Assembly: GCA_002702705.1 (NCBI GenBank) | Contig: PABH01000028.1 | Coordinates: 62,001 to 126,000, forward strand | Source of the DNA: Anaerolineaceae bacterium | GTDB taxonomy: Bacteria > Chloroflexota > Anaerolineae > Anaerolineales > Anaerolineaceae | Direction of reading: 5' to 3' | Length of the DNA stretch: 64,000 bases | In this document: piece by piece, positions 16,128-21,882 of the stretch | Position numbering within the stretch: position 1 is the stretch's first letter | How the letters are laid out: every line of letters starts with the position of its first letter | Program-made: the position numbers and the translations under genes | The notes under the pieces: generated by a model | Databases searched by the model: none | The model's input: the letters and a program-made list of their open reading frames with translations, nothing else | Told to the model about the DNA's origin: nothing

Positions 16128-17717
16128 TTAAAAATCGTTTTTTCCAATTGTTTTGAAAAACACTGTATTTTTAGGATTACCAGCAATAAAATTTGTTAGG
16201 TTTTTGATCTTCATTCCATCGCCATCCGTGTTAACTTCGTATGATACCCAAAGATCTGTGGGAGGGGGAAATCCCTGATACTCAATTAACTTATCCCTGC
16301 TGCGTAAGAATTCATGAATTCCAGAAAAGCTGGAGAAGAAGAGATACAAAATTAGAATGAATGAAAATAAAAGATTCCGTAAATTTTTAGGCGAAAAAAG
16401 ATTGATGGTGGATATCTTTTTAATTAAAAGAATATACACAATTAATAATGCGGGAATAGATACTCGCATTACAAAATCATTGTGATTCCCATAATGGTAT
16501 AAAGGGATTATCGTTAATGTGATGAATGTTGCTAACCATAAGAATTTATTATTCTTTTGATAGACTAATAGAATAGCAATCCCAAATTCCAAAACCAAAA
16601 ATAATACGATTCGTTGTGGTAAATATTTACCTAATTGACCATATAATTCCCAAATAAAGTTATGGGGATTGGATGAAATTGTCGCTGAAAAAAATAAATA
16701 GCTGGTGACAACTAAAATTAATGGAATAATTGTATTCTGAAAAGAAATGGTTTCTCGAAAAATACGTTTAAGATTGGGAGAAGTTGATTCATTGATTGGA
16801 AATGCAAGTTTATATAAAACAAAAGGAATTAATCCTATAGAGGGAAAAGGAGCAAATAATAAGATCAATGCATAAGTAAAAACTATATTTTTTCGGTTTT
16901 TTATATTTAACAATAAAGCGGTCATTAGCCAGGCAGGAATGGCTTGATTAAAAACCCAAAAGAGTTGCACGGTTTGAGCAGAATACTGAAAAGGTGGAAT
17001 CCACCATTCAAGCTGACTATTATCTAAAAAATTAAAGAGTGATAACCCCAATTGGGCTTTTAAGCCGGTTGAAAAGGGGGGCTGTGTATTCCCAAATAGG
17101 TTTAAGTCGTTTAAAAGTACAAATCCAATGATATCTAGCCCACCCCAAAAAATAAATATGATTAAGTACCCTATGTTTGTTTTTTTAACGTATCGAGCGA
17201 TTAATAATATTGTCAGTAAAACACCAATCCCAGTCCATAGGAATAAGAAGTAATTTGCCACTTTCCACCCAAAAAACTTGCCGACTAAAGCTGATGGCAA
17301 CCAAAAAGAGAAATAATAAATTAAAGCGCCTTGATCACCAAAAATTTCCTGCAATATGGGTTGGTCTGAATAATCGTAATGAACAGGCCAGGTATGGGAA
17401 ATGAGGTCTCTTAGCATGGCGTTTCTTCCGCTAAAATCGTCGTTTTGAAATCCAAGACCGCCAATACCAGAGAACACCAACCATATTCCAACTAAAATAA
17501 TTGTGAATATAAGAAATTGTGTTCTCTTATAGCTAAGTTTATAGGCTAGAAATTCCCAATTTCGCAGACATAATATAAATCCCATAATAAGTAAAATGGA
17601 AAAAATTACTGACACTATTAATTTCAGCCAGCCAAAAAAAAATAATATTAGCGGGATAATAAAAAACAGATACGCCGAAACGATTAGGATTTGATCAAGG
17701 AATTTACTGTTTTTCAT
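16128..17717 (-). CDS. large polytopic membrane protein, GT-C-like, unknown function
   Basis: 529 residues, with about twelve hydrophobic helices. The only recognisable signal is QNDDFSGRNAML (Asp93-Asp94) in the loop after the third helix, similar in position to the acidic motif of GT-C enzymes. Beyond that I do not recognise the family. It is transcribed alone on the reverse strand, convergent with the GT operon and just downstream of the cysN stop. The ATG lacks a Shine-Dalgarno and sits 10 bases behind a -10 box, so translation may be leaderless. It could be an assembly enzyme or transporter for the surface glycan. Confidence 0.6.
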   Translation of the reverse strand: MKNSKFLDQILIVSAYLFFIIPLILFFFGWLKLIVSVIFSILLIMGFILCLRNWEFLAYKLSYKRTQFLIFTIILVGIWLVFSGIGGLGFQNDDFSGRNAMLRDLISHTWPVHYDYSDQPILQEIFGDQGALIYYFSFWLPSALVGKFFGWKVANYFLFLWTGIGVLLTILLIARYVKKTNIGYLIIFIFWGGLDIIGFVLLNDLNLFGNTQPPFSTGLKAQLGLSLFNFLDNSQLEWWIPPFQYSAQTVQLFWVFNQAIPAWLMTALLLNIKNRKNIVFTYALILLFAPFPSIGLIPFVLYKLAFPINESTSPNLKRIFRETISFQNTIIPLILVVTSYLFFSATISSNPHNFIWELYGQLGKYLPQRIVLFLVLEFGIAILLVYQKNNKFLWLATFITLTIIPLYHYGNHNDFVMRVSIPALLIVYILLIKKISTINLFSPKNLRNLLFSFILILYLFFSSFSGIHEFLRSRDKLIEYQGFPPPTDLWVSYEVNTDGDGMKIKNLTNFIAGNPKNTVFFKTIGKNDF

Positions 17718-17767: not shown

Positions 17768-19582
17768 TCACACCTTAAATATCACACCATGATCCTGTAG
17801 CAGCCGCTTGATTGACACGGTAGCTTCTTCCAGTGGTTCATAGTGATGGAAGATGAGATCGTAGGTAATGTCGGTGGTCAGGTCTTCGCCCAACCAGATG
17901 GTTTCGATCTTTTCTTCGCCGATGACGGCTTTGATGATGTTCAGGTCAGCCTGGGTGAGTTCAACCGCAGTGACGATCATGATCATGCCCGCGTCCAGGA
18001 AGAGGTGGGCCACTTCTGCAAAACGGCGGATATTTTCCCGCCAGTCCCCTGGCGTTTGGTTACGTTTGAGGTCTGCATTCACGCCATACAGCAGTGATCC
18101 GATGCCCATGTAGTAAGCCAGTTTGCCGGAATCAAATAAGTGCTGCTCTAACATACTGGCCAGGCGTTTACGCCCAACACCTTTAGGTCCGGTGACGATG
18201 ACCAGTGAAGATTTTTGGTTATAACGCTCGGCACGCTGCTCACTATTTACTGTGCTGCGAATCCATTTTTGGTTACGCAGGAAGATGTCTTCCCGCAGTT
18301 GGCTTTCTTCATCCGGCAGCGCTTCGATCACAATCCCGCCGCCCCGAATTTCATACTCATCCACAATCACAAACCGGCTGGTGTCAGGCAGCTTGTCGGA
18401 AGTGTCAAAGGCGATGGGGTGCGCCAATTTGAAGGTGACCTCAGCCACATCGTGGTGGTTGATCTCCGTTTTTCCGTTAACACTGCCGTAATCCGAGGCA
18501 TCAATAATGTTGTGAATGGTTTCGATTTGAGCACGTTCTTTTGCGGTGCCTAGCTTTAAATAAAATGTCTTTTTGGTAGTGAGGGGTTGTTTGCCTAACC
18601 AGAATAAACTGACCCGCATCCGGGTACTGACAGCCGGTGTGGCTTCACCCACCTTACACACCACTTCACCACGGTGCGTATATATTTGGTCACGCATAGT
18701 GAAACCTGTGGACTGCCCGGCGATGGCTGTTTCTTGTTTTGGGGTATTAAACGATTCGATTGAAGCCAGGGTAGTTCGTTTGCCGGAAGGGTAAACGATC
18801 AGTTCTTCATCTTGATTTAGACTGCCGCTGGAGATGGTACCTGCGATAATACGCCGGCTGTCGCCGTAGGTCGAAAATTTGTATACATCCTGGATGGGTA
18901 AACGCAGCGGTTGGTTGGTTAACGGTGGTTCTTTGGTGAAAGAATCCAATGCTTGTAATGTAGATAGACCTTCATACCAGCTTGTGGATTTTGAAGGAAA
19001 AACCACATTATCGCCCTCTCTTCCGCTGACAGGAATATAAAATAAAGGTTTTACACCGATGCCTGCCAGGTAGGCACTGTATTCAGTTTGGATTTTATCA
19101 AAAACTTCCTGGCTGTAATTCACCAGGTCCATTTTGTTCACCACCACCACAATCTTTTTGATGCCCAGCATCCACAATAAATAACCGTGCCGCCTTGAAT
19201 TTTCCTGCACCCCTTCATCCGCGTCGATCACAAGAACAGCGGCTTCGGCGTGGGAAGCGCCAGTCACCATGTTTTTTATAAATTCAATATGTCCTGGTGC
19301 GTCGATGATGATGTAACTGCGCTGTTCGGATTGGAAAAACACCCGCGCCGAATCAATGGTGATGCTTTGGGCTTGTTCATCTTTTAATGCGTCAATCAGA
19401 AAGGCATATTCAAACGGTTTACCTTCTTTTTGGCAGCGTTCCCGGATTTGTTCCATTTTTCCTTTTGGCAGGGAATTGGTATCTGCCAACAAACGGCCAA
19501 TGACGGTGCTTTTTCCGTGATCCACATGACCGACGAAGACGATGTTCATTTGCTCTTTATTGAGATCGGTTAGTGCTGTCAT
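17768..19582 (-). CDS. cysN: sulfate adenylyltransferase large subunit fused to a degenerate APS-kinase domain
   Basis: GTP-driven subunit that with CysD makes adenosine phosphosulfate from ATP and sulfate. The GTPase domain is intact: G1 GHVDHGKST (residues 17-25), DAPGHIEF and NKMD, followed by EF-Tu-like beta barrels. Residues about 458-604 align by eye with APS kinase, as in NodQ/CysNC fusions, but catalytic parts are lost. The P-loop reads GPKGVGRKR instead of [16 protein letters not shown] has become MGIGSLL, and the active-site Ser-Pro segment is absent, while ENIRR..EV and LDAG remain. The total of 604 residues is close to a full CysNC. It starts 3 bases after cysD. The tail is probably structural or regulatory, as a complete CysC is encoded upstream. 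Confidence 0.92.
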
Positions 19583-19585
19583 GGT

Positions 19586-20467
19586 TTACATATATCCTTC
19601 TCGGCGTAATGCTTCCAATCCGCCGCCGTCTTCTTTATCCTGTGCACGCCCGGAGCGTTCGGCGATATTGGCGAATTTACCTACTTTTAATTCGGCGATA
19701 ATTTCATCCACATTGGCTGCTTCCGATTCAACTGGCACGGTACAGGGATAACAGCCCAAAGACCGATACCGCCGACCATTACCCTGGTTGTAATATAAGG
19801 AAACGGTGGGAATATTTTCACGTTTGATGTATTCCCAGATATTTAATTCCGTCCAATCCAGCAATGGGTGAATGCGGACATTTGTGCCCGGAGCAAAATC
19901 GGTTTTGTATTGATTCCAGAATTCGGGTGGTTGGTCTGCGATATTCCATTCATTTTGGCGGTCTCGGGCGGAAAAATATCGTTCTTTTGAACGGGATCCT
20001 TCTTCATCCGCCCGGGCACCAACAATGACACCGGTGAACGCTTGTGGGTTGATTTCTTCTTCGTAGGTGTGGGTGTCGTGGTTGTAACGAAGCCGTTTTC
20101 CTTTTCCGTTCAGCGTTTGGGTAAGTGCCTGGGTTTTTAATAAACCGCAGCATGTTAAGCGATCCACAGCACCATCCGGAAAGGTGTTTTTTTGTTCGAG
20201 TGCTTCAAAATTCGACCCTACGACCATTGTCAGGCGCATTTCCCGCACCAGTTCATCCCGATATTGAATCATTTCGGGGATTTTAAAGTGGGTGTCAATA
20301 TGCACCAGGGGAAAAGGTACATGTCCAAAAAAGGCCTTTCGGGCTAACCATAACAGCACGGTGCTGTCTTTTCCCATTGACCATAACATACCCAGGTTTT
20401 TAAAATTAGCGTATGCTTCACGTAAAATGTGTACGCTGCGACTTTCAAGTTCGTCTAAATGACCCAT
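19586..20467 (-). CDS. cysD: sulfate adenylyltransferase small subunit
   Basis: 293-residue ATP-alpha-hydrolase-type subunit of ATP sulfurylase. It opens with [17 protein letters not shown] and has the PP-loop ([13 protein letters not shown]), the [16 protein letters not shown] segment and an ending REGYM, all family hallmarks. The Arg-rich C-terminal piece ([19 protein letters not shown]) binds the CysN partner in known complexes. An AAGGAAA ribosome site precedes the ATG. It is the third gene of tauE-cysC-cysD-cysN, separated from cysC by 25 bases. Confidence 0.96.
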
Positions 20468-20492: not shown

Positions 20493-21110
20493 TCAATTAG
20501 TATAGGGGGTAATCACTTTTTTTTGAAGTAAATGTTCAATGACCTGGTTTGCACATTCTTCAATAGTAAGTTCCGCACTTTTTAAAATTAGTTCAGGATT
20601 TACTGGTGGTTCGTATGGCGAACTGATGCCAGTAAATTGCGGAATTTCCCCGCTGCGGGCTTTCTGATATAAACCCTTTGGATCCCGGCTTTCACATACT
20701 TCAATGGGACAATCCACAAAAATTTCGTAAAAGCAACCTTGCGGGAGGGTGGCCCGTACACGTTCCCGGTCATTGATAAAAGGGCTTATAAAAGCGGTAA
20801 TGACGATCAAACCAGCATCGACCATTAATTTGGAAACTTCACCAATGCGGCGGATATTTTCCTGCCGGCCTTGTTCCGAAAAATCAAGATCCTGGTTTAA
20901 ACCGGTTCGGATATTATCGCCATCCAGTAAATAGGTGTGAACACGATAATGTTGATTTAATTGCTGTTCGACAGCCCCGGCGATAGTGCTTTTTCCCGAG
21001 CCGGATAGTCCCGTGAACCACAAGACCACTGGTTGATGGTTTTTAATTTTGGAACGGTCAATCACTGTGATTTTGTGTTGGTGCGGGATAATATTTTTGT
21101 TTTTTGTCAT
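20493..21110 (-). CDS. cysC: adenylylsulfate kinase
   Basis: Phosphorylates APS to PAPS in the cytoplasm. The 205-residue protein has the canonical P-loop GLSGSGKST (residues 34-42), [12 protein letters not shown], the [16 protein letters not shown] helix, the active-site AFISPF (Ser) and the mobile-lid region [20 protein letters not shown]. Everything lost from the CysN tail is present here, so this enzyme should carry the kinase activity. It starts 3 bases after the tauE/safE stop. Confidence 0.96.
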
Positions 21111-21113
21111 TAA

Positions 21114-21860
21114 TTAAAACCAGATTTGATAAAGTGTTCTTAATTGTAACCCAATAATCAACACGGCAACGATGATCATAATCACTTTGGGTGGTAATTT
21201 TTTGGTGAGTAATGCGCCAAATGGGGCGGCAATCACGCCACCCAGCATTAAACCCAAGATAATATTCAGGTTAACCAGGCCGATGGTAAGTATGAAGGCA
21301 ATTGCTTCGGAAAAGGTGACAAAAAATTCAGTCAGATTAACCGATCCAATGGTCTTATTCGGTACATTCCCATCGGAAATCAAGGTAGAGGTTACAATCG
21401 GTCCCCAGCCCCCGCCGCCAATGGCATCAAACAATCCGCCAAACAAACCAAGCGGGAAAAGATATTTGTTTTTGGGCGTGGTTGTTAATGTGGTGAACTT
21501 GAGCGCTTTCAAAAAGATGCGAATCCCCATAATTAATAAATAAATCGCGATATAGGGTTTCAATTTTTCGCCGGGGAGGCTGGTGAGAATATAAGCACCG
21601 GTGACCCCACCGATCACTCCGGGAATGGCGAGGCGTTTCACCAGATTAAAATCAACATTGCCGAACCGCCAATGAGATAATCCTGAAACAGCCGTGGTGA
21701 CGATTTCCGCGGTGTGCACACTGGCACTGGCAGCTGCCGGGGAGACGCCAACTCCTAATAAAAAGCTGTTTGCACTGACCCCGTAGGCCATTCCCAAACT
21801 GCCATCAATTAACTGAGCAATAAAGCCCACTAATACAAAAAGCAAAAATTGAATATCCAT
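21114..21860 (-). CDS. TauE/SafE-family sulfite or organosulfonate transporter
   Basis: About 248 residues with seven to eight hydrophobic helices and the two Gly-rich family repeats (FIAQLIDGSLGMAYG near the N-terminus and GLFGGLFDAIGGGGWGPI in the middle). Such proteins move sulfite, sulfoacetate or similar anions across the membrane. As first gene of the tauE-cysC-cysD-cysN operon it may serve sulfate uptake or sulfite removal. I place the start at the ATG at 21860, which has a G-rich ribosome-like site. An in-frame ATG at 21872 is an alternative and would be nearly leaderless behind the -10 at 21883-21888. Confidence 0.85.
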   Translation of the reverse strand: MDIQFLLFVLVGFIAQLIDGSLGMAYGVSANSFLLGVGVSPAAASASVHTAEIVTTAVSGLSHWRFGNVDFNLVKRLAIPGVIGGVTGAYILTSLPGEKLKPYIAIYLLIMGIRIFLKALKFTTLTTTPKNKYLFPLGLFGGLFDAIGGGGWGPIVTSTLISDGNVPNKTIGSVNLTEFFVTFSEAIAFILTIGLVNLNIILGLMLGGVIAAPFGALLTKKLPPKVIMIIVAVLIIGLQLRTLYQIWF

Positions 21861-21882
21861 ACCACACCCCATACCCTTACGC

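Follow-up and report, generated by a model that had tools for sequence, protein, structure and literature searches.

Why should a subunit of ATP sulfurylase carry the remains of an APS kinase when an intact APS kinase is encoded in the same run of genes? The question is raised by a cysN-like gene in a 64,000-nucleotide stretch of an Anaerolineaceae genome (assembly GCA_002702705.1, contig PABH01000028.1, positions 62,001 to 126,000), which is referred to as a whole as the window. A first-pass annotation had noted that the C-terminal tail of this CysN lacks the Lys-Ser-Thr of the P-loop, the DGDNIR motif and the catalytic Ser of APS kinases but keeps their ENIRR..EV and LDAG segments, and that an intact CysC lies in the same operon. 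All of these observations are borne out by the features of the locus, given here in window coordinates.

17768..19582, minus strand: cysN-like gene, 604 aa; an EF1A/CysN GTPase at about residues 1-425, a linker and a dead APS-kinase-like tail.
17771..18265, minus strand: the dead APS-kinase-like tail of CysN, residues 440-604, with the PF01583 match at 458-564.
17987..18046, minus strand: alpha2 helix and LDAG, both kept, CysN residues 513-532; it holds four of the eight dimer-interface positions (520, 523, 527 and 530) mapped from PMC13213808.
18089..18106, minus strand: the former DGDNIR motif, CysN residues 493-498, now GIGSLL.
18164..18190, minus strand: the former Walker A motif, CysN residues 465-473, where GPKGVGRKR replaces GLSGSGKST.
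19586..20467, minus strand: cysD, 293 aa, the sulfurylase catalytic subunit; PF01507; CysD model NF003587, 351.8 bits (cut-off 195).
20493..21110, minus strand: cysC, 205 aa, an intact APS kinase; PF01583, E 3.3e-66; NF003013, 297.1 bits (cut-off 163).
21114..21872, minus strand: TauE/SafE permease, the first gene of the run; PF01925, E 1.9e-40.

The run tauE-cysC-cysD-cysN extends on the minus strand from 21872 to 17768, and the ends of its open reading frames are separated by gaps of 3, 25 and 3 bases. Directly downstream of cysN, at 16128-17717 on the minus strand, is the gene for a 529-aa protein that is hydrophobic by sequence and for which Pfam gives no hit at E 1. In the whole genome to which the window belongs, PF01583 matches the CysN tail, CysC and one weak candidate (20.2 bits, in another frame), whose translation we take to resemble the SRP protein Ffh. 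CysD is the only PF01507 protein in the genome. Since no CysH was found there by the PF01507 search, and one sulfotransferase scores above the cut-off of its model, PAPS in this organism more likely serves sulfation.

The tail is recognizable as an APS-kinase domain, although it falls short of the models built for whole enzymes. Residues 458-564 match PF01583 (APS_kinase) with an E value of 1.4e-11 (45.1 bits against a cut-off of 21.1). The APS kinase model TIGR00455 is not passed by the tail (49 bits against 138.7), nor is the bifunctional CysNC model NF004035 by the whole protein (436.5 bits against 715), and the CysN model TIGR02034 is narrowly missed (328.7 bits against 336.1). The G1 motif of the GTPase, GHVDHGKST, is invariant in 74 sequences, cysD adjoins the window cysN, and a tree of the GTPase part places the window CysN in a clade separate from canonical CysN. 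The linker starts at W440 and leads into the tail, which is thus attached to a CysN-type GTPase and not to a Sat-type sulfurylase. A frameshift or assembly error as the source of the tail was rejected, because the frame is open in the window and likewise in the listed relatives.

The loss of the active site was followed in 81 tails (80 loci and the window) and compared with 51 CysC sequences, for which only rows of 166-239 aa were used. The ligand positions were those of the Mycobacterium CysC structure, as described in PMC4373884. In the window tail the P-loop GLSGSGKST and DGDNIR are replaced by GPKGVGRKR and GIGSLL; the Walker Lys has become Arg, the Ser of FISP is Glu541, and RENIRR..EV and LDAG are retained. 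The lid over ATP and APS, with its catalytic Lys and the Phe of FTG, is deleted over about 32 alignment columns relative to both the NodQ-type tail and CysC, so that the full APS-kinase length is not kept and the first-pass annotation is only partly right on this point. Similar losses run through the other tails. The position of the Mg2+ ligand Ser457 is Lys in 79 tails and Arg in two, against Ser in 46 and Thr in five of the 51 CysC sequences. Asp480 is found in none of the 81 tails and Arg483 in one, whereas both are present in 51 of 51 CysC sequences, and the position of the lid Lys562 is deleted in all 81 tails and is Lys in all 51 CysC sequences. The FISP Ser remains in one of 81 tails compared to 50 of 51 CysC sequences, the FTG Phe in no tail, and the Ser/Thr that follows the Walker Lys is absent in 81 of 81. 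By the same alignment all compared ligand residues are present in the window CysC.

The tails have also acquired a conserved pattern of their own. Window-tail position 472 is Lys in 79 of 81 and Arg in the remaining two, and position 471 is Lys or Arg in every one. A new conserved motif surrounds YFLGIG[SN].LYGV, and W563 (80 of 81) and G565 (81 of 81) are conserved residues that do not occur in CysC. Judged by its sequence, the tail is almost certainly a catalytically dead APS-kinase domain that selection has retained. Three genomes (L213, L214 and L215), outside the 81-tail set, have a second, divergent CysN paralogue with a dead tail, in which Walker A GKS is intact and DGDN and the lid are lost.

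The fold has apparently survived the loss of catalysis. An AF2 model of the tail alone has a pLDDT of 88.2 and a pTM of 0.83. When this model was compared with solved structures, ranks 1 to 30 were all APS kinases or APS-kinase domains (Z 16.1-19.2), and the first different structure, at rank 31, was another kinase with a Z of 14.7. The dead domain of the Penicillium ATP sulfurylase is among the matches (1m8p, Z 16.8; 1i2d, Z 16.6). Fold searches with the full-length CysN model returned only EF1A/EF-Tu/eRF3/CysN-type entries among the matches listed, and a phmmer search of the PDB with the whole protein returned only GTPases of that type among the best 60 of 225.

Such tails are widespread. 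A tail on CysN was found in 15 of 101 genomes, namely the window's own and 14 of 100 relatives, and the matches contain no internal stops; in L017 the match covers only residues 1-152 of 165. Five further genomes of the 101 have weaker matches in other frames only, and 81 have no match of any kind, the presence of CysN itself having been checked only in the phylum sample. The tails in relatives of the window's family are open and alike, so the check for decay proposed in the first-pass annotation found neither absence nor random erosion among them. A scan of GTDB yielded 88 confirmed relatives, from which the best 80 loci, several from one genome, were retained. By their record titles these loci come from over ten phyla and include Chloroflexi, Halanaerobium and other Bacillota, Bacteroidota, Planctomycetota, Spirochaetes, Gemmatimonadales, Omnitrophota, Neomarinimicrobiota, Acidobacteria, Fusobacteriales, Lokiarchaeota and others. 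Metagenome bins make up many of them, but Halanaerobium and Eubacterium xylanophilum are named strains, and so is Ilyobacter polytropus. In this last case the gene (L276, 3693-5498) is annotated as a GTP-binding protein only; the plasmid that carries it is typed as conjugative and also has cysC, adenylyl-sulfate reductase alpha, a ferredoxin and cysD. In two loci from Asgard archaea (L094 and L100, titled Lokiarchaeota, Harpocratesius) cysD and a cysC match accompany a dead-tail CysN.

A search with the GTPase part gave a view of how often the tail has been lost. CysN-like matches at E 1e-60 were found in 26 of 301 Chloroflexota genomes. Three of the 26, the window included, belong to the window's CysN clade (562-734 bits, the others scoring at most 352), and all three have the tail. 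A sample of 294 Planctomycetota genomes contains 27 clade proteins (>580 bits), of which 23 have dead tails, two have eroded ones and two have lost the tail; the border of the clade, at about 560 bits, is our own choice. The eroded or lost tails are those of L178, L185, L197 and L198. In L197 and L198 the tail is gone after about residue 447 and a short peptide, similar in the two, stands at the end instead; no APS kinase was found in their genomes with PF01583. Another relative in the clade, L203, has about 155 unrelated residues where the kinase tail would be.

Selection on the tail was estimated from 25 pairs of genes, which were chosen by hand, overlap and come mostly from CysC-bearing genomes, so that the counts are not independent. 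The 21 pairs that gave a value for the tail have dN/dS of 0.011-0.192, and random erosion of the tail is rejected on this ground. Together with the open, conserved tails of the relatives, these values uphold the earlier description of the tail as a retained pseudo-enzyme domain. The tail is more constrained than the GTPase part in 13 of the 17 pairs with both values, and more constrained than CysC in 12 of 13. In pairs from CysC-lacking genomes it is looser than the GTPase part in five of the five computed (0.34-0.50 against 0.18-0.33). The ratio of tail to GTPase distance, CysC-lacking against CysC-bearing, is 1.71 against 1.91 in the closest bin and 1.71 against 1.32, 1.75 (one pair) against 1.61, and 2.46 against 1.54 in the others. 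These ratios, higher without CysC in three of four bins and lower in the closest, hint at some CysC-linked constraint, and the tail seems to be held more tightly where CysC is present.

The 58 dead tails that were placed in a tree form a single clade among 94 kinase domains, with a support of 100. Of the 80 loci, which were thinned by number, two being too short, 30 went into the CysN tree, and the kinase-domain tree was thinned likewise. In the tree of the GTPase part the pseudo clade comprises 60 rows with a support of 89, and 58 of these are grouped with a support of 99. Motif-intact fused kinases form a grade below this clade; L200-L202 and L204-L206, just outside it, have fused kinase tails with intact motifs. 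The tail-less L207-L209 and L212, in which PF01583 finds no tail, lie deeper. Because the dead tails are one clade and motif-intact fused kinases form a grade below it, the pseudo clade probably goes back to a live CysNC that was silenced in one old event, although support for the key branches, from a quick tree search, is only moderate (84-92). Silencing would therefore predate the operon of the window, and the proposal that the tail was kept after subfunctionalisation with a separate CysC is not upheld, as the silencing has a single origin among the treed tails and is not tied to CysC. The idea that the window CysC split off from the tail, or is a recent duplicate of it, was also rejected, since a long branch with a support of 100 separates the pseudo tails from motif-intact kinases. 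Within the canonical clade, the CysN of L211 and L216 have damaged APS-kinase tails of their own (L211 has DGQN for DGDN and a changed FISP serine), and silencing has therefore happened more than once.

The partner expected for a dead kinase domain is a live one, and a CysC match of >110 bits does lie within 62 of the 80 loci. An intact CysC is encoded elsewhere in 15 of the remaining 18 genomes; of the last three, two have a fragment and one has none. The 22 dead-tail genomes found by the GTPase search or alongside it (20 from the Planctomycetota sample and two Chloroflexota) are divided evenly, 11 with an intact CysC and 11 without. Completeness is known for two of the CysC-lacking genomes, at 98% (G153) and 83%. 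G618 has a typical tail and CysC was not found in it, and G536 has an atypical tail and CysC. Parsimony gives a weak preference for a pseudo-clade ancestor without CysC (five steps, against six for an ancestor with it). A CysH-type reductase adjoins the dead-tail gene in G153, G425 and G533 (L263, L270 and L274). These three reductases pass TIGR02055 (APS reductase) and fail TIGR02057 (PAPS reductase), but also pass NF002537 and TIGR00434, both named phosphoadenylyl-sulfate reductase; the models are thus divided as to the substrate, and the missing APS kinase argues for APS. The reductase beside the tail-less L273 (G440) passes NF002537 alone. Clustering of the neighbours of the loci revealed no third partner that matches the constancy of cysD and cysC.

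What the tails appear to have kept is the face by which APS kinases dimerize. The interface was defined by the eight residues named for the Entamoeba enzyme in PMC13213808, out of 32 said to participate in one structure, and they were transferred by motif spacing and not by alignment with the Entamoeba sequence. In the window CysN they fall at positions 489, 490, 500, 504, 520, 523, 527 and 530. At these eight positions, so mapped, the tails retain the CysC consensus in 91% of cases on average, compared to 10% at the 13 ATP/APS ligand positions from PMC4373884 and 31% at 37 other columns conserved in CysC. The retention at the seven comparable interface positions was reached in none of 20000 random draws. 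Gly occupies position 500 in 80 of 81 tails, and Gly at the corresponding position is associated with the open type of dimer in PMC13213808. In a deeper set of 108 tails alpha2 is the best-kept helix (2.42 bits, against a mean of 1.87 for all columns) and may be conserved for the fold alone; alpha3, which PMC4373884 also assigns to the dimer interface, is below the average, with 1.48 bits against 1.87.

We propose, with a probability of about one half, that the tail is a non-catalytic dimerization module, which would serve the assembly of the GTP-driven ATP sulfurylase CysDN. It is the best fit because such a role can do without catalysis, without the old ligands and without CysC, and yet the mapped dimer face has been kept; persistence of the tail in genomes without CysC is as predicted by an assembly role independent of CysC. 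The tail was probably inherited from an ancestor whose CysN carried an active kinase domain, as NodQ/CysNC proteins do. The retained face would join two CysN tails and hence two CysDN units. In genomes with a separate CysC, such as that of the window, this face may pair with it instead and place it at the site of APS production, and this pairing may be a later addition to the dimerization role.

The first-pass annotation had suggested instead that the tail docks CysC or channels APS. The tail would then be a platform on which a pseudokinase-kinase heterodimer passes APS from CysD to CysC. The frequency of CysC within or outside the 80 loci, the retention of the dimer face (mapped as above) and the looser tails of CysC-lacking pairs in three of four bins all speak for such a platform. 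As a universal function it is rejected by the 11 of 22 tail-bearing genomes without an intact CysC, among them the 98% complete G153; the slight parsimony preference and the two genomes that retain CysC beside eroded tails weigh in the same direction. Docking could still operate in the CysC-bearing majority, which includes the window, but as the explanation of the tail it is a tentative alternative. A composite reading is somewhat more doubtful: the tail would be an ancient pseudokinase subunit that forms a heterodimer with CysC if present and a homodimer if not, and whose altered P-loop reads an anion or nucleotide and sets the activity of CysDN.

It is unlikely that the tail is in essence a ligand sensor, comparable to the PAPS-binding dead domain of fungi, with the P-loop G....G[KR]K holding an anion or nucleotide and a Lys in place of Mg2+. 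The near-invariant basic residues at 471 and 472 and the YFLGIG[SN].LYGV-type motif would suit such a role, and in fungi a regulatory role of dead APS-kinase domains is known (PMC13213808, PMC3779200). However, the APS/PAPS ligands R483, both stacking Phe residues and the lid are lost, whereas the fungal domain retains FTG and lid-like segments as well as the GDTVR Arg. Furthermore, the P-loop is gone in the deep members L145 and L146, and PAPS is an improbable ligand where no APS kinase was found. Since the ligand residues are gone, binding of PAPS at the old site is unlikely, and so is the sensing of APS there that had been suggested earlier.

That the tail is an inert cap, needed only for the folding or solubility of CysN and without contacts of its own, would agree with the presence of W440, R450 and Q456 of the linker, together with core positions, among the best-kept columns, but is made quite improbable by the tail-less CysN proteins of the same wider clade (L197, L198, L207-L209 and L212). 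Plain decay of a useless remnant, for which the four eroded or lost tails and the looser tails of CysC-lacking genomes could be cited, is very hard to reconcile with open tails in 14 of 100 relatives and 80 loci of many phyla, with their low dN/dS and with new conserved residues such as W563 and G565.

The tail has several counterparts among known systems. The ATP sulfurylase of Penicillium chrysogenum (1i2d/1m8p) likewise has a dead APS-kinase fold C-terminal to the sulfurylase, but there it follows a Sat-type enzyme, and the lid and part of the pocket are kept in sequence. This fungal enzyme with a dead regulatory domain is already known (PMC3779200 and PMC13213808), and the dead domain forms a kinase-domain dimer, as described in PMC13213808. 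The CysNC/NodQ proteins of Mycobacterium and rhizobia have the same order of domains as the window protein, a CysN GTPase followed by an APS-kinase domain. The alignment with this type called for earlier shows that the window tail is 26% identical to the Mesorhizobium CysN tail, which keeps the lid, FTG and further motif residues that the window tail lacks. In the two-domain APS kinases of Thiobacillus denitrificans and Entamoeba histolytica, too, one of the fused domains is dead, but the arrangement is reversed, the sulfurylase-like half being dead and the kinase alive; the dead domain of T. denitrificans is predicted to stabilize the assembly (both after PMC13213808). No description of a dead APS-kinase domain on CysN was found in the open-licence PMC literature, as covered by titles and the openings of abstracts.

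The finding bears on annotation as well as on evolution. A survey of 2007 separated CysN from NodQ by means of the PF01583 model (PMC1780047), and this model alone does not necessarily separate dead from live tails. A match above the cut-off could be misread as an APS kinase where the genome encodes none: in G153 the tail scores 29.6 bits and is the sole APS-kinase match. Dead APS-kinase domains were known on fungal Sat, and the domain has met the same fate on the GTP-driven sulfurylase, an unrelated enzyme, in a single old lineage that spans many phyla. If the reading as a pseudokinase subunit were true, a fused APS kinase would have been converted into a controller without catalytic activity on two sulfurylases that are unrelated, the fungal Sat and the CysDN of this lineage. 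The lineage, in which some members have the partner CysC and others do not, provides a natural test of why a dead domain is retained.
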